Origin: Bradyrhizobium sp. MOS002 | Lineage (GTDB): Bacteria > Pseudomonadota > Alphaproteobacteria > Rhizobiales > Xanthobacteraceae | Assembly (NCBI RefSeq): GCF_003020115.1 | Contig: NZ_PYFX01000004.1 | Span: 248,001-312,000, forward strand | DNA: 64,000 nucleotides | Reading direction: 5' to 3' | In this document: piece by piece, positions 483 to 5,941 of the stretch | Layout of the letters: each line of letters begins with the position of its first letter | Position numbering within the stretch: position 1 is the first letter of the stretch | The notes under the pieces: model-generated | The model's database searches: none | What the model was told of the DNA's origin: nothing | The model's input: only the letters and a program-made list of their open reading frames with translations | Position numbers and translations under genes: made by a program

Positions 483-1652
483 ATGACCGCCAGCATCGTC
501 GGATGGGCGCATACGCCGTTCGGCAAGTTCGACACCGAGACCGTGGAAAGCCTTGTGGTGAAGGTCGCCAATGAGGCGCTGGCGGATGCCGGCATTTCGG
601 CCGGCGATGTCGACGAGATCGTGCTCGGCCATTTCAACGCCGGCTTCTCGCCCCAGGATTTTACCGCCTCGCTGGTGCTTCAGGCCGACCCGAAGCTGCG
701 CTTCAAGCCGGCGACCCGGGTCGAGAACGCCTGCGCCACCGGCTCCGCCGCCGTCCATCAGGGCGTGCGTGCGATCGCGGCCGGCGCGGCCAGGATTGTC
801 CTCGTTGTCGGCGTCGAGCAGATGACGCGCACGCCGGGGCCGGAGATCGGCAAGAATCTGCTCAAGGCGTCCTATCTGCCTGAGGACGGCGACACCGTCG
901 GCGGCTTCGCTGGCGTGTTCGGCAAGATCGCCAGCTCCTATTTCCAGAAATACGGCGACCAGTCCGACGCACTGGCGCTGATCGCGGCCAAGAACCACAA
1001 GAACGGTGTCGCCAATCCCTTCGCCCAGATGCGCAAGGACTTTGGCTTCGAGTTCTGCCGCGCCGAGAGCGAGAAGAACCCCTATGTTGCCGGCCCCCTG
1101 AAGCGCACCGACTGCTCGCTGGTCTCGGACGGTGCCGCTGCCCTGGTGCTGGCCGACGCGGAAACCGCCAAGGGCATGAGCAAGTCGATCGGCTTCCGCG
1201 CCACCGCGCACGCCCAGGATTTCCTGCCGATGTCCAAGCGTGACATCCTCCAGTTTGAGGGCTGCACGGTCGCCTGGCAGCGCGCGCTGGAGAAGGCGGG
1301 TGTTGCGCTCACCGATCTCTCTTTCGTCGAGACCCATGACTGCTTCACCGTCGCCGAGCTGATCGAGTACGAAGCGATGGGCCTGACGCCGAGGGGGCAG
1401 GGTGCCCGCGCCATCAAGGAAGGCTGGACGCTCAAGGACGGCAAGCTGCCGGTCAATCCGTCCGGTGGCCTGAAGGCCAAGGGCCATCCGATCGGCGCCA
1501 CCGGCGTCTCCATGCACGTGATGACTGCGATGCAGCTCGCCGGCCAAGCGCCTGAGGGCATGCAGCTCAAAAATGCAAAACTCGGCGGCATCTTCAACAT
1601 GGGCGGCGCCGCGGTCGCCAACTACGTCTCCGTGCTGGAGCCGCTGAAGTAA
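483..1652 (+). CDS. Thiolase family acyl-CoA acetyltransferase
   Basis: A 389-residue thiolase, the usual length. It probably cleaves or condenses a 3-ketoacyl-CoA in the cytoplasm. All catalytic elements are present: the nucleophilic Cys84 in ENACATGSAA, the HDCFTVAE segment, and the C-terminal GGLKAKGHPIGATG loop with its catalytic His. The sequence resembles the SCP2-type/acetyl-CoA acetyltransferase branch more than PhaA. The start has GGGAGAAA just upstream. It stands alone between two palindromes (438-456 and 1662-1692). The acyl substrate cannot be read from sequence; the CoA-transferase and thiolase-like genes 450 bp downstream suggest a shared acyl-CoA pathway. Confidence 0.88.
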   Translation: MTASIVGWAHTPFGKFDTETVESLVVKVANEALADAGISAGDVDEIVLGHFNAGFSPQDFTASLVLQADPKLRFKPATRVENACATGSAAVHQGVRAIAAGAARIVLVVGVEQMTRTPGPEIGKNLLKASYLPEDGDTVGGFAGVFGKIASSYFQKYGDQSDALALIAAKNHKNGVANPFAQMRKDFGFEFCRAESEKNPYVAGPLKRTDCSLVSDGAAALVLADAETAKGMSKSIGFRATAHAQDFLPMSKRDILQFEGCTVAWQRALEKAGVALTDLSFVETHDCFTVAELIEYEAMGLTPRGQGARAIKEGWTLKDGKLPVNPSGGLKAKGHPIGATGVSMHVMTAMQLAGQAPEGMQLKNAKLGGIFNMGGAAVANYVSVLEPLK

Positions 1653-1766: not shown

Positions 1767-1973
1767 ATGAGCAATGACTACGAAGATTCGCTGTCGATGG
1801 ACGCACTCAACGATCGCATCGCGATTCTCCAGGACAATATCCGCCAGCTCATCGAGCAGGCCGCGGCCGCCTCGGGTGAGCAGAACGAGTCGCGGATCGC
1901 GGACCGCATCAACCAGCAGAATGAGGAGCTCGACCGTCTCCTCAAGGTTCGCGAATCCCGTCAGAAGAAATAG
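1767..1973 (+). CDS. Small coiled-coil protein, DUF1192-like
   Basis: A 68-residue acidic/charged protein preceded by CAGGGGATG. Its middle part (about residues 10-60) has heptad-like spacing of Leu, Ile and Ala with many Glu, Gln and Arg, so one long amphipathic helix or coiled coil is expected. No signal peptide, membrane segment or Cys is present. The pattern in which a short acidic head precedes LNDRIAILQDNIRQL resembles DUF1192-type small proteins, but this is a weak match by eye. No function can be assigned. Its codon use and GC content look like those of its neighbours. Confidence 0.65.
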   Translation: MSNDYEDSLSMDALNDRIAILQDNIRQLIEQAAAASGEQNESRIADRINQQNEELDRLLKVRESRQKK

Positions 1974-2095: not shown

Positions 2096-3319
2096 ATGGG
2101 GCCGCTGAAGGGTATCAAGGTCGTCGACATGACCACCGTGCTGATGGGCCCCTATGCGACCCAGATGCTCGGCGACTACGGCGCAGACGTCATCAAAGTG
2201 GAGTCTCTGGACGGCGACGTCACCCGCCTGATCGGTCCGATGCGGCACGCCGGCATGGGCCCGGTGTTCCTCAACACCAACCGCAGCAAGCGCTCGATCT
2301 GCCTCGACCTGAAGAAGCCCGCCGGCCGCGAGGCGGTGCTGCGCTTGCTGAAAGACGCCGACGTTCTCGTCTACAACGTCCGCCCGCAGGCGATGGCGCG
2401 GCTTCAACTGGGCTATGACGTTGTTTCCAAGATCAATCCGCGTCTGGTCTATGCCGGCGTGTTCGGCTTCGGTCAGGACGGGCCGTATGCTGCAAAACCC
2501 GCCTATGACGATCTGATCCAGGGCGCCACCGCGCTGCCGGCCTTGATGGCGCAGACCGGTGACGGCGTGCCGCGCTACGTGCCGAACGCACTGGTCGATC
2601 GCATCGTAGGCTTGACCGCCGTGGGCGCGATCTGCGCCAGCCTCGTGCACCGCGACCGCACCGGACGCGGCCAGCGCGTCGACATCCCGATGTTCGAGAC
2701 CATGGCCGGCTTCGTCATGGGCGACCACATGGGCGGGCTCACCTACGAGCCTCCGCTCGACAAGGGCGGTTACGCTCGCCACCTCTCGCGCGACCGCCGG
2801 CCCTATAAGACAGCCGACGGCTATCTCAGCGTCATCGTCTACAACGACAAGCAGTGGGAAAACTTCTTCGAGGCGACGGGACGCGACGACCTGCGCGCCG
2901 ATCCCCGGTTCGCGAGCTTCGCCGGCCGCGCCGCCAACATCGACGTCGTCTATGCCGAGCTCGCGCGCATCTTCGAGACGCGCGCCACGGCGGAATGGAT
3001 CGACCTGCTGACCCAGGCGGACGTGCCGGTGATGCCGATGCACGACCTCGCGTCGATGCTGCACGATGAACATTTGGAGGCGACCAACTTTTTCCCGGTG
3101 GTGAACCATCCAACTGAAGGGCCGATCCGGAGCATGAGAGTGACGGCGACCTGGTCCGAGACCGAGGCCGAACCGGTGCGGCTCGCGCCACAGCTCAACG
3201 AGCACGGCGCGGAAATCCTGCGTGAGGCCGGCTATTCCGCGGACGAGATCGACGCCATGGTCCGCGATGGCGTCACCCGTTCGCCGCCCCGGAATGACGA
3301 TGCACAGGTACGCCCATGA
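2096..3319 (+). CDS. CaiB/BaiF class III CoA-transferase
   Basis: A 407-residue family III CoA-transferase, which moves CoA between organic acids through an aspartyl-CoA mixed anhydride. The N-terminal PLKGIKVVDMTTVLMGPYAT and GADVIKVE segments and the NRSKRSICLDLK strand are typical. Asp138 in AYDDLIQG is the expected catalytic residue. The ATG at 2096 is preferred to an in-frame TTG at 2069 because GGGAGCGA lies at the right distance. Its stop overlaps the start of the thiolase-like gene (ATGA), and that gene overlaps the DUF35 gene the same way, so the three are translationally coupled. It probably activates the acid whose CoA ester the next two proteins process; the acid is unknown. Confidence 0.88.
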   Translation: MGPLKGIKVVDMTTVLMGPYATQMLGDYGADVIKVESLDGDVTRLIGPMRHAGMGPVFLNTNRSKRSICLDLKKPAGREAVLRLLKDADVLVYNVRPQAMARLQLGYDVVSKINPRLVYAGVFGFGQDGPYAAKPAYDDLIQGATALPALMAQTGDGVPRYVPNALVDRIVGLTAVGAICASLVHRDRTGRGQRVDIPMFETMAGFVMGDHMGGLTYEPPLDKGGYARHLSRDRRPYKTADGYLSVIVYNDKQWENFFEATGRDDLRADPRFASFAGRAANIDVVYAELARIFETRATAEWIDLLTQADVPVMPMHDLASMLHDEHLEATNFFPVVNHPTEGPIRSMRVTATWSETEAEPVRLAPQLNEHGAEILREAGYSADEIDAMVRDGVTRSPPRNDDAQVRP

Positions 3320-4452
3320 GCTTCATCACCGGCGTCGGCCTCACATCTTTCGGCAAGCACGAAGGCTCGTCCTCGCTCGACCTGATGAGCAAGGCCGCGC
3401 AGGCCGCGCTCGACGATGCCGGGCTTAAGCGCACCGAGATCGACGGCATCCTCTGCGGCTACTCCACCGTCTCGCCGCACATCATGCTGGCGACCGTCTT
3501 TGCCGAGCATTTCGGCATTCGTCCCAGTTACGCCCACGCGGTCCAGGTCGGCGGCGCGACCGGGCTCGCGATGACCATGCTCGCCCATCATCTCGTCGAC
3601 GCAGGCGTCGCTCGCAATGTGCTCGTCGTGGCCGGCGAGAACCGCCTCACCGGGCAGAGCCGCGATGCCTCGATCCAGGCGCTGGCGCAGGTCGGCCATC
3701 CCGACTACGAGGTGCCGCTCGGCCCGACCATTCCTGCTTATTACGGTCTGGTCGCCACCCGCTACATGCACGAATACGGCGTCACGGAGGAAGACCTCGC
3801 CGAGTTCGCGGTGCTGATGCGCGCCCACGCCTGCACCCATCCCGGTGCGCAATTCCACGATCCCATCGGGGTTACTGATGTCATGGCCTCGAAGCCGGTG
3901 GCAATGCCGCTGAAGCTGCTCGATTGCTGCCCGGTGTCCGATGGCGGCGCCGCCTTCGTCATCAGCCGCGAGCGCACCGGAGAAGCCGGCGTGCGCATTC
4001 GCGGCTGTGCCCAGGCTCATACCCATCAGCACGTCACAGCGGCGCCCGCCTTGAGCGAACTCGGCGCCGAGATCTCCGTCGCCCGCGCCAAGGAGGCCAC
4101 CGGCCTGGCGATCTCCGACGTGCGCTACGCCGCGATCTACGACAGCTTTACGATCACGCTCGCGATGCTGCTGGAAGACCTCGGCCTCGCCGGTCGGGGC
4201 GAGGCAGCCGCGCGCGTGCGCGCCGGCCATTTCAGCCGCGACGGCGCCATGCCGCTGAACACCCATGGCGGCCTGCTCAGCTACGGTCATTGCGGCGTCG
4301 GCGGCGCCATGGCGCATCTGGTCGAGGCCCATCTGCAGATGACGGGACGGGCGGCGAATCGCCAGGTCCGCGATGCCTCGATCGCGCTGCTGCACGGCGA
4401 TGGCGGCGTGCTGTCGTCCCACGTGACCATGTTCCTGGAGCGGTTGCGATGA
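3316..4452 (+). CDS. Thiolase-like protein lacking the catalytic Cys
   Basis: A 378-residue thiolase-fold protein. Where true thiolases have N-A-C-A-T-G, this has V78-G-G80-A-T-G, so the acyl-accepting Cys is Gly80. The HDCFT segment is YDSFT (Tyr275, Ser277), while the C-terminal His325 is kept in SYGHCGVGG. It overlaps the CoA-transferase upstream and the DUF35 gene downstream by 4 bp each. In known systems such as Ltp2 with ChsH2-DUF35 in steroid side-chain degradation, a Cys-less thiolase-like protein plus a DUF35 partner forms an acyl-CoA retro-aldolase. A similar C-C cleaving activity is inferred here. An acyl carrier or lipid-transfer role is the alternative. Confidence 0.85.
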   Translation: MSFITGVGLTSFGKHEGSSSLDLMSKAAQAALDDAGLKRTEIDGILCGYSTVSPHIMLATVFAEHFGIRPSYAHAVQVGGATGLAMTMLAHHLVDAGVARNVLVVAGENRLTGQSRDASIQALAQVGHPDYEVPLGPTIPAYYGLVATRYMHEYGVTEEDLAEFAVLMRAHACTHPGAQFHDPIGVTDVMASKPVAMPLKLLDCCPVSDGGAAFVISRERTGEAGVRIRGCAQAHTHQHVTAAPALSELGAEISVARAKEATGLAISDVRYAAIYDSFTITLAMLLEDLGLAGRGEAAARVRAGHFSRDGAMPLNTHGGLLSYGHCGVGGAMAHLVEAHLQMTGRAANRQVRDASIALLHGDGGVLSSHVTMFLERLR

Positions 4453-4808
4453 ACGAGCGAATCGCGGATTGGACCCAAGGTGAGCAGGTCATCACCTTTC
4501 AGACCTGCACCGCATGCGGCCATGTGCAGTATTTTCGTCGCGCCTTCTGCGCGGTCTGCGGCGCGTCCGATCCGCGCGAGCAGCGCGCAAGCGGCAAGGG
4601 CAGGGTCTACGCGACGTCGCTGGTTTGCCGGGCCGCGACGCCTGAGACGCGCGCACACGTGCCCTACAACATCCTGCTGGTCGATTGCGCCGAGGGTTTT
4701 CGCATGATGGCGCATGGTGAGAAGGATCTTGCCATCGGCGACGAGGTCAATGTGAGCTTCAAACCGTTCGCCGGAAAACTGGTGCCGTTCTTCGCCAAAG
4801 CCAAATAG
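4449..4808 (+). CDS. DUF35 zinc-ribbon/OB-fold acyl-CoA partner protein
   Basis: A 119-residue protein with an N-terminal zinc ribbon (Cys20, Cys23, Cys34, Cys37; CxxC-x10-CxxC) followed by a beta-rich OB fold (about residues 48-119). It begins with ATG overlapping the stop of the thiolase-like gene, so the two should be made in fixed ratio. DUF35 proteins bind thiolase-like partners and, in the steroid aldolases, are required for activity and CoA-ester binding. This gives the main support for reading the preceding gene as an aldolase-type rather than a condensing enzyme. The operon ends here; a palindromic repeat follows. Confidence 0.88.
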   Translation: MNERIADWTQGEQVITFQTCTACGHVQYFRRAFCAVCGASDPREQRASGKGRVYATSLVCRAATPETRAHVPYNILLVDCAEGFRMMAHGEKDLAIGDEVNVSFKPFAGKLVPFFAKAK

Positions 4809-4930: not shown

Positions 4931-5017
4931 TTCGTCATTCGGGAGCGGTCCAAAGGACCGAGCCTGGAACGGGAATTCTGGGCCTGGCCTGTGCGAGGGC
5001 CACCCCGGAATGACGAA
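4931..5017. repeat. Dispersed palindromic repeat, family B
   Basis: Terminal inverted repeats TTCGTCATTC (4931-4940) and GAATGACGAA (5008-5017) enclose internal pairing segments such as GGTCC/GGACC. It lies directly behind the family A copy, so two different repeat families are stacked in one gap. Confidence 0.7.
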
Positions 5018-5413: not shown

Positions 5414-5941
5414 ATGGCCCGCATCAACTACAGCGACCCGTCCAAGGCATCCGACCGCACCCGCGAAATCCTCGACAAGAATCGCAATGCCAACATCTTC
5501 CGGATGATGTCGCATTCGCCGAGCTATTTTGAGCAGTACTGTCGGCTCGGCGGCGCCATCCGTCACAAGGGCGAGCTCGATCCGATCGTGCGCGAGCTCG
5601 CGATCACCCGAACCGGCATCCTGTGCGAGGCGCCGTATGAGATCGTCGCACACAAGCGTATCGGCAAGAATGTCGGCGTCACCGACGAGCAGAACGAGGC
5701 GCTCGAGAACTGGCAGGCCGCGACCTGTTTCGACGAGACCCAGCGCGCCGCGCTCGCCTTCACCGACGAGATCGTGAAATTGAACAAGCCGACGGGTGCG
5801 ACCTTCAAGGCGATCGCGTCAAAACTGACGCCGGCCGCGCTGGTCGAGCTGCAGCTCTCGGTCGGCTTCTACATCATGACCTCGAAATTCCTCGAGACGT
5901 TCGAGATTGATCTCCAGCCCGTCACGGAAGTGGTGGGCTGA
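5414..5941 (+). CDS. Carboxymuconolactone decarboxylase-like (AhpD fold) protein
   Basis: A 175-residue all-helical protein of the CMD/AhpD family. The core segment ELAITRTGILCEAPYEIVAHKRIG corresponds to the region that carries CxxC in peroxidatic members. Here only Cys71 remains, Tyr75 replaces the area of the second Cys, and His80 is kept, so a thiol peroxidase cycle is unlikely. Members of this type act as decarboxylases or have unknown roles. The ATG at 5414 follows CAGGAAAATC; the frame is open further upstream but that part crosses the hairpin and lacks a good start. It is followed after 26 bp by the MazG-like gene, probably co-transcribed. Confidence 0.8.
   Translation: MARINYSDPSKASDRTREILDKNRNANIFRMMSHSPSYFEQYCRLGGAIRHKGELDPIVRELAITRTGILCEAPYEIVAHKRIGKNVGVTDEQNEALENWQAATCFDETQRAALAFTDEIVKLNKPTGATFKAIASKLTPAALVELQLSVGFYIMTSKFLETFEIDLQPVTEVVG

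Follow-up and report, generated by a model that had tools for sequence, protein, structure and literature searches.

Which reaction could be carried out by a thiolase-like protein without the nucleophilic cysteine? The question is raised by three genes in a 64,000-nucleotide stretch of Bradyrhizobium sp. MOS002 DNA (RefSeq assembly GCF_003020115.1, contig NZ_PYFX01000004.1, positions 248,001 to 312,000 of the forward strand; hereafter, the window). All on the plus strand, they encode a 407-aa family III coenzyme A (CoA)-transferase of the CaiB/BaiF type (CoAT; 2096..3319; CoA_transf_3 in Pfam, 1e-110), a 378-aa Cys-less SCP2-thiolase-like protein (THIO; 3316..4452; Thiolase_N and Thiolase_C_1 in Pfam), and a 119-aa DUF35 protein with a ChsH2-type zinc ribbon and OB fold (4449..4808; zf-ChsH2 and OB_ChsH2_C in Pfam). 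The first-pass annotation proposed that the trio is an acyl-CoA aldolase module. The coordinates, strands and overlaps that it gave are correct: both junctions are ATGA, each with a 4-bp overlap. According to our analysis, THIO is probably an acyl-CoA retro-aldolase built on the thiolase fold, with the DUF35 protein as its proposed partner.

Active site and family position of THIO

In THIO, Gly80 stands at the column of the nucleophilic Cys, Tyr275-Asp276-Ser277-Phe278 takes the place of HDCF, and His325 is the His of the GHP motif. The residues named in the first-pass annotation are confirmed by alignment in number and identity, and THIO thus lacks the hallmarks of SCP2-thiolases (no nucleophilic Cys, no HDCF). 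To follow these positions, we aligned 125 relatives: 90 close ones (84 to 97% identical and not independent of one another), 12 at 55 to 61% identity, 2 at 45 to 46%, and 21 at 36 to 43%. Gly80 and Tyr275 are present in all 125, His325 in 123, and Ser277 in 104; the first two are also invariant in the 35 relatives outside the close group. Since Gly80 and Tyr275 are kept across the whole set, the changes in the active site are not a matter of chance. The best curated model for THIO, at a score below its cut-off, is acetyl-CoA acetyltransferase, a reaction that is very probably beyond proteins with these residues.

Thiolase-fold aldolases with DUF35 partners are already known. For Ltp2 and Sal, the activity has been established by structure and assay, and for IpfD it comes from pathway studies cited in the consulted part of PMC9195938. 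Among the closest known systems is Sal-Shy(DUF35) of Comamonas testosteroni (PDB 9MYR), an aldolase acting on bile-acid side chains. Sal resembles THIO in its SCP2-thiolase fold, a Gly in place of Cys, a catalytic Tyr in a YDxF/Y motif, and a DUF35 partner (excerpted text of PMC12329534), at 31.1% identity over 347 positions. Ltp2-ChsH2(DUF35) of Thermomonospora curvata (PDB 6OK1), an aldolase acting on the cholesterol side chain, has the same fold, the Gly, and the Tyr within YDHF (32.1% identity over 358 positions). IpfD, from the ibuprofen pathway of plasmid pIBU218 (NZ_CP059320.1), has the Gly and a Tyr in YDAF at 30.4% identity; we assigned the ipfD and ipfE loci by gene order from the description in PMC9195938, of which a part was consulted. 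The Gly80 and Tyr275 columns are therefore common to T. curvata Ltp2 (TcLtp2), C. testosteroni Sal (CtSal), IpfD and THIO. In the passages of PMC12329534 on CtSal, Tyr302, at the Tyr275 column, is essential, and Gly89 touches the hydroxyl in the authors' model.

The enzymes differ from THIO in the residues that accompany this pair. The acid is Cys304 in Sal, with Gln352 at the 325 column (PMC12329534, excerpts); it is Tyr344 in Ltp2, with His296 at the 277 column and a two-residue gap after the acid relative to THIO; IpfD has Tyr at the His325 column. That Ltp2 Tyr344 and CtSal Gln352 both fall in the His325 column of our alignment agrees with the excerpted PMC12329534. We tabulated the residues at columns 277 and 325 in 65 rows, of which L207 was set aside and three are Cys-bearing thiolases with Cys at column 80 and His at column 275. 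Among the Gly/Tyr proteins, the pairs are Ser/His (35 rows), Ala/His (17), Cys/His (5), Cys/Gln (3, one of them CtSal) and His/Tyr (Ltp2 alone); IpfD, compared separately, is Ala/Tyr. All three rows with Gln at 325 have Cys at 277 (two of these are close relatives), and every protein with Ser or Ala at 277 carries His or Tyr at 325. The simplest reading of this comparison is that the proton donor shifts position within this part of the fold family and would be His325 in THIO. Both CtSal C304S and C304H are inactive (PMC12329534, in excerpt), and the inactivity of C304S speaks against Ser277 as the acid; on sequence, His325 is the likeliest candidate for proton donor.

A maximum-likelihood tree, from which loci L005 to L083 were omitted as near-duplicates, places THIO in a 31-member clade (support, 100) alongside proteins from Methylobacterium, Comamonas, Cnuibacter, Azospirillum, Roseovarius and Paracoccaceae plasmids. 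A separate clade (support, 94) unites Ltp2, Sal and IpfD; inside it, IpfD groups with Ltp2 (support, 100). All Tyr-type proteins are split from the three Cys-bearing thiolases (support, 92). What appears to be new is thus a clade that lies apart and fails the residues defining both Ltp2 and Sal. Membership in the Ltp2 subfamily was rejected, given YDSF and His325 rather than YDHF and Tyr344 and a position outside the Ltp2 clade, as was membership in the Sal subfamily, given Ser277 and His325 rather than Cys304 and Gln352 and a DUF35 partner with a Cys4 rather than a Cys3His site.

The AlphaFold model of THIO (predicted local distance difference test score, 91.6; predicted template modeling score, 0.92) has the SCP2-thiolase fold. 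Its top structural match is TbSLP of Trypanosoma brucei (5AB6/5AB7; Z, 54.4), and the others include a genuine thiolase (6esq; Z, 54.1), Sal (9myr; Z, 51.5; root mean square deviation [rmsd], 2.4 over 370 positions) and Ltp2 (6ok1; Z, 49.2; rmsd, 2.0 over 357). TbSLP, which we compared outside the tree, carries YDCF and is a proposed aldolase; unlike THIO, it has Cys at the 277 column (PMC12329534, excerpted text). In sequence, the best PDB match is 4u4e, an uncharacterized thiolase of Sphaerobacter thermophilus (190.5 bits), which shares the Gly/Tyr/Ser/His set but is 35.7% identical and lies outside the THIO clade. Benzoylsuccinyl-CoA thiolase (BbsAB) with benzylsuccinate CoA-transferase offers a similar set of parts (thiolase-like, DUF35 and family III CoA-transferase) but matches weakly (NCBIfam scores of 119.6 bits against a cut-off of 750, and 20.1 against 250); BbsAB is a thiolase by name, whereas THIO has no Cys, and the identification of THIO as BbsB was rejected as far under the equivalog cut-off. 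The genome of the same strain holds two further thiolase-like genes of the Gly/Tyr type adjoining DUF35 genes (C56, locus L156, and C23, locus L157); they are 32 to 33% identical to THIO and have Ser/His and Ala/His pairs.

The DUF35 partner and the proposed reaction

The intact Cys4 ribbon attributed earlier to the DUF35 protein is present, with Cys20, Cys23, Cys34 and Cys37 invariant in 9/9 aligned sequences. The DUF35 partner of Ltp2 likewise has a Cys4 ribbon, whereas the zinc site of the Sal partner is Cys3His (both from the excerpted PMC12329534); in IpfE, the four ribbon Cys are absent by eye. As a set of closest relatives, we used the best 80 of 322 loci, with gene starts set by tblastn; the nearest named relatives of the window among them are Bradyrhizobium (two records bear other titles, Frankia sp. 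RB7 and Bradyrhizobiaceae bacterium). THIO and DUF35 overlap by 4 bp in 73 of these 80 loci. A wider sample of 28 neighborhoods comprises 20 genomic loci and 8 named plasmids, with neighbors counted on the same strand, a ligase within about 3 kb and a MaoC-type gene within about 1.7 kb. In this sample, DUF35 adjoins THIO in 26/28 cases, 24 found by tblastn and 2 by annotation (L210 and L213); L148 was counted as lacking it despite a short DUF35-like match upstream at that site (L105).

The two genes also disappear together. In all six informative loci that keep CoAT and an acyl-CoA dehydrogenase (ACAD) gene but have no THIO (L195 to L198, L201 and L202), DUF35 is absent as well; these loci are relatives, and the losses need not be independent. 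The count leaves out L200, where the contig ends after ACAD, L203, which is another locus, and L199. In L199 (G724), THIO is cut to about 227 codons, and DUF35, ACAD and CoAT are retained. THIO and DUF35 very likely form a complex.

From these patterns, we infer a heteromeric acyl-CoA retro-aldolase working like Ltp2, Sal and IpfD. CoAT would load CoA onto an organic acid, either a β-hydroxy acid directly or an acid that is desaturated and hydrated by enzymes encoded elsewhere, and the β-hydroxyacyl-CoA would then bind in the thiolase cleft of THIO. There, the Gly80 backbone may make room for the β-hydroxyl and hold it, while Tyr275 would act as the base that deprotonates it, breaking the Cα-Cβ bond; His325, not Ser277, would protonate the acyl-CoA enolate. 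Cleavage would yield an aldehyde or ketone together with a shortened acyl-CoA (acetyl-CoA or propionyl-CoA, for example), and DUF35 would support the fold and shape the cleft. The minimal sets of activator, THIO and DUF35 suggest as substrate a β-hydroxy or unsaturated acid from outside. No pointer to a steroid substrate was found.

The activating enzyme and the history of the operon

Two possible relationships may explain why CoAT precedes THIO: the three genes may belong to one pathway, or CoAT and THIO-DUF35 may be mere neighbors from different pathways, which concerns only the link between them and is compatible with an aldolase. CoAT lies upstream of THIO in 78/80 loci (one exception is a contig end) and in one sister genus, and in other genera some CoA ligase often adjoins the pair; both observations favor a shared pathway. 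On the other side, CoAT and ACAD survive the loss of THIO-DUF35, the activators in other genera are different ones, and the CoAT/THIO overlap, found in 17/80 loci, is lineage specific. In the remaining loci, the junction is a gap of less than 60 bp (13 loci), a gap of 60 to 300 bp (41), or an intervening ACAD (6, plus one cut by a contig end); one locus has 1.2 kb of other DNA in between, and CoAT is absent from another. On balance, CoAT probably serves the same pathway as THIO-DUF35, and we regard a chance adjacency as possible but rather unlikely.

As to the substrate class of CoAT, all seven of its NCBIfam matches are far under their cut-offs. Its Asp168 falls in one column with Asp residues of 4ed9 and 10uh, which we take to be the column of the catalytic Asp of family III CoA-transferases.

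The wider neighborhoods indicate that the activating enzyme is exchangeable. An ADP-forming CoA ligase adjoins THIO-DUF35 in 13/28 cases, more commonly than a CoA-transferase does in other genera, and a MaoC-type gene does so in 7/28. Plasmids of Methylobacterium aquaticum and Comamonas endophytica carry THIO-DUF35 with an ADP-forming ligase, AtuA-family genes and tricarboxylate transporters. The Paracoccaceae plasmid (L210) has a row of ligase, small gene, PhaJ-like hydratase, THIO and zinc-ribbon protein; the actinobacterium Cnuibacter has THIO-DUF35-ligase; and in Azospirillum and Roseovarius the pair is followed by two small MaoC genes, an arrangement that recalls ChsH1-ChsH2-Ltp2. The ipf cluster also combines an activator, a thiolase-like protein and a DUF35 protein; according to the consulted part of PMC9195938, activation of the acid precedes the release of propionyl-CoA, but an AMP-forming ligase and a ring dioxygenase take the place of a CoA-transferase. 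Elsewhere on pIBU218, outside the ipf genes (L216:5519-9137), a cluster of CaiB CoA-transferase, enoyl-CoA hydratase, DUF35 and an Ltp2-like protein (58.9% identical to TcLtp2) joins a CoA-transferase to an aldolase set in another subfamily.

The part of the first-pass annotation that assigned activation to CoA transfer therefore fits the closest relatives and the sister genus, whereas the ligase is the commoner partner in other genera. The genomic context points to acyl-CoA catabolism in many, not all, cases: ligase, MaoC or ACAD genes are frequent neighbors, and 7 of the 28 neighborhoods have no match to a CoA ligase, CoAT or MaoC. In four loci of this last group (L131, L132, L136 and L137), our gene calls place a gene of one cluster directly upstream of THIO; Pfam identifies the one in L131 as a zinc alcohol dehydrogenase.

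The three-gene arrangement probably arose by reduction of a longer operon, since ACAD is in place in the sister genus and in 55 genomes of the genus. In the sister genus (G236, L144), the order is thiolase, AMP-forming ligase, CoAT, ACAD, THIO, DUF35 and ADP-forming ligase, and one Bradyrhizobium-genus genome (L207) has most of it. We scanned 146 Bradyrhizobium-genus genomes at thresholds of 1e-180 for THIO and 1e-170 for ACAD, counting truncated THIO as missing. THIO was found in 131 genomes and both genes in 130; compared by eye, the two are adjacent in 55 of these, at contig ends in 2, and elsewhere in 73. The closest ACAD homolog in the window's own genome (C7:76025-77188) shares 83% identity with the ACAD of the sister genus. 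Seven such copies form one clade with weak rooting, and a single genome (G662) in the group of 55 that have ACAD in place carries an additional copy at about 82%; the C7-type gene may equally well be a relocated gene or an old paralog. It adjoins genes for a MaoC protein, a CitE-like lyase (HpcH/HpaI) and an AMP-forming ligase (L154), with MaoC missing or elsewhere in some relatives. As the missing hydratase, the MaoC/CitE pair was rejected because the MaoC match is absent from 4/12 genomes and away from ACAD in 3.

A dispersed palindromic repeat stands at the CoAT-THIO junction of many related loci. A 13-bp piece of it, CCCCGGAATGACG, occurs twice in the window (0.17 copies expected), at 3287-3299 (plus strand, inside the 3' end of CoAT) and at 5003-5015. 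In 39/72 tested loci, the exact 11-base core of the repeat is found no more than 300 bases upstream of THIO, and the window itself has it. By junction type, the core is present in 36/38 loci with a gap of 60 to 300 bp, in 2/5 with ACAD between, and in 1/14 with the overlap; given this last count, the idea that the overlap is a scar of repeat-mediated deletion was dropped.

Upstream of the trio lies an intact SCP2-type thiolase gene (483..1652, plus strand) that keeps the Cys, HDCF and GHP motifs and matches NF005704/PRK07516 at 700 bits against a cut-off of 412. A copy 88 to 100% identical is present in 79/80 loci. Because this adjacent thiolase retains all three motifs, the changes at Cys and HDCF are specific to THIO. 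Between it and CoAT is a small open reading frame (1767..1973, plus strand; about 68 codons) whose product by eye resembles a coiled coil, with look-alikes, also judged by eye, in related loci L012, L145 and L186. A carboxymuconolactone decarboxylase-family gene (5414..5941, plus strand) follows downstream, as in most of the best 80 of 322 loci. Between 1600 and 5500, a promoter scan gave no sigma-70-like site, and terminator-like sites numbered 3, against 2.8 in shuffled sequence.

Competing functions and significance

The aldolase reading is strengthened by the Gly80 and Tyr275 shared with Ltp2, Sal and IpfD, by the conserved DUF35 pairing, and by the ligase, MaoC and ACAD neighbors. Several observations weigh against it or against a single pathway. 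THIO is 31 to 32% identical to Sal and Ltp2 and belongs to another clade, and to our knowledge a Tyr/His catalytic pair has no tested precedent. The fold is indifferent: with TbSLP and a genuine thiolase matching equally well, it was ruled out as proof of aldolase chemistry. The trio has no adjoining hydratase gene and no ACAD within it, and seven loci of one genus (L131 to L134 and L136 to L138) have no match to a CoA ligase, CoAT or MaoC. Several genomes keep CoAT and ACAD without THIO-DUF35; one shared pathway is not required. ACAD is near-universal in the genus (143/146 genomes, including 13 of the 15 that lack THIO by the scan thresholds), so its presence is uninformative, and its co-occurrence with THIO was rejected as functional evidence. 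The aldolase module proposed in the first-pass annotation stands as a reading of sequence.

Could THIO instead be an acyltransferase, a decarboxylase or a retro-Claisen hydrolase, similar to TbSLP or PhlC, with His325 activating CoA or water? His325 is the same His that thiolases retain in the GHP motif, and TbSLP, the top structural match, reportedly decarboxylates malonyl-CoA very slowly; the PhlABC acylase and benzoylsuccinyl-CoA thiolase also carry DUF35 subunits (PMC12329534, excerpted text). However, Gly80, Tyr275 and Ser277 take away both Cys of SCP2-thiolase chemistry, and TbSLP is itself a proposed aldolase, while CtSal is described in the same excerpts as having no malonyl-CoA decarboxylation. 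All three Gly/Tyr enzymes to which a reaction has been assigned are retro-aldolases (PMC12329534 and PMC9195938, in the parts consulted). We consider this alternative improbable.

Aldol chemistry is reversible, and THIO-DUF35 could run in the synthetic direction, adding an acyl-CoA enolate to an aldehyde to give a β-hydroxyacyl-CoA. In two neighborhoods, the Paracoccaceae plasmid (L210) and Cnuibacter (L211), the pair stands beside split transketolase, short-chain dehydrogenase/reductase-type and glycerol dehydrogenase genes. Such transketolase and polyol genes could handle short aldehydes; they also hint at a short hydroxylated substrate or an aldehyde product of cleavage. The acid-activating ligases, carboxylate transporters, hydratases and dehydrogenases found nearby read as catabolism, and a synthetic role seems highly unlikely. 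Least credible of all is a noncatalytic, structural THIO that partners the intact 483-1652 thiolase and shares one DUF35 with it, for although that gene is kept upstream in 79/80 loci, Gly80 and Tyr275 are invariant in 125 relatives, unlike in a decaying copy, and on three named plasmids the pair has no second annotated thiolase within 9 kb (annotation there being incomplete).

Retro-aldol cleavage by THIO is the reading that we favor. A literature search, in which subscription journals and preprints were little covered, recognized no paper on the THIO clade or the Bradyrhizobium trio. THIO-DUF35 occurs in Alpha- and Betaproteobacteria, on at least one actinobacterial plasmid and, for THIO, in 131/146 Bradyrhizobium-genus genomes, and the plasmid genes of the clade are annotated "thiolase family protein" or "thiolase." If these proteins are aldolases, a widespread gene set is misannotated as thiolases. 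A bolder and tentative proposal, to which we give slightly less than even weight, is that THIO represents a third class of thiolase-fold acyl-CoA aldolases, with a Tyr/His pair and nonsteroid substrates, in which THIO-DUF35 would serve as portable C-C scissors behind varied activators (CoA-transferase, ADP-forming or AMP-forming ligase) and an optional MaoC, acting on an undiscovered soil or plant acid. If the proteins are aldolases, the aldolase branch of the thiolase fold may serve catabolism broadly and not steroid breakdown alone, and for Bradyrhizobium this would point to an unrecognized carbon source.

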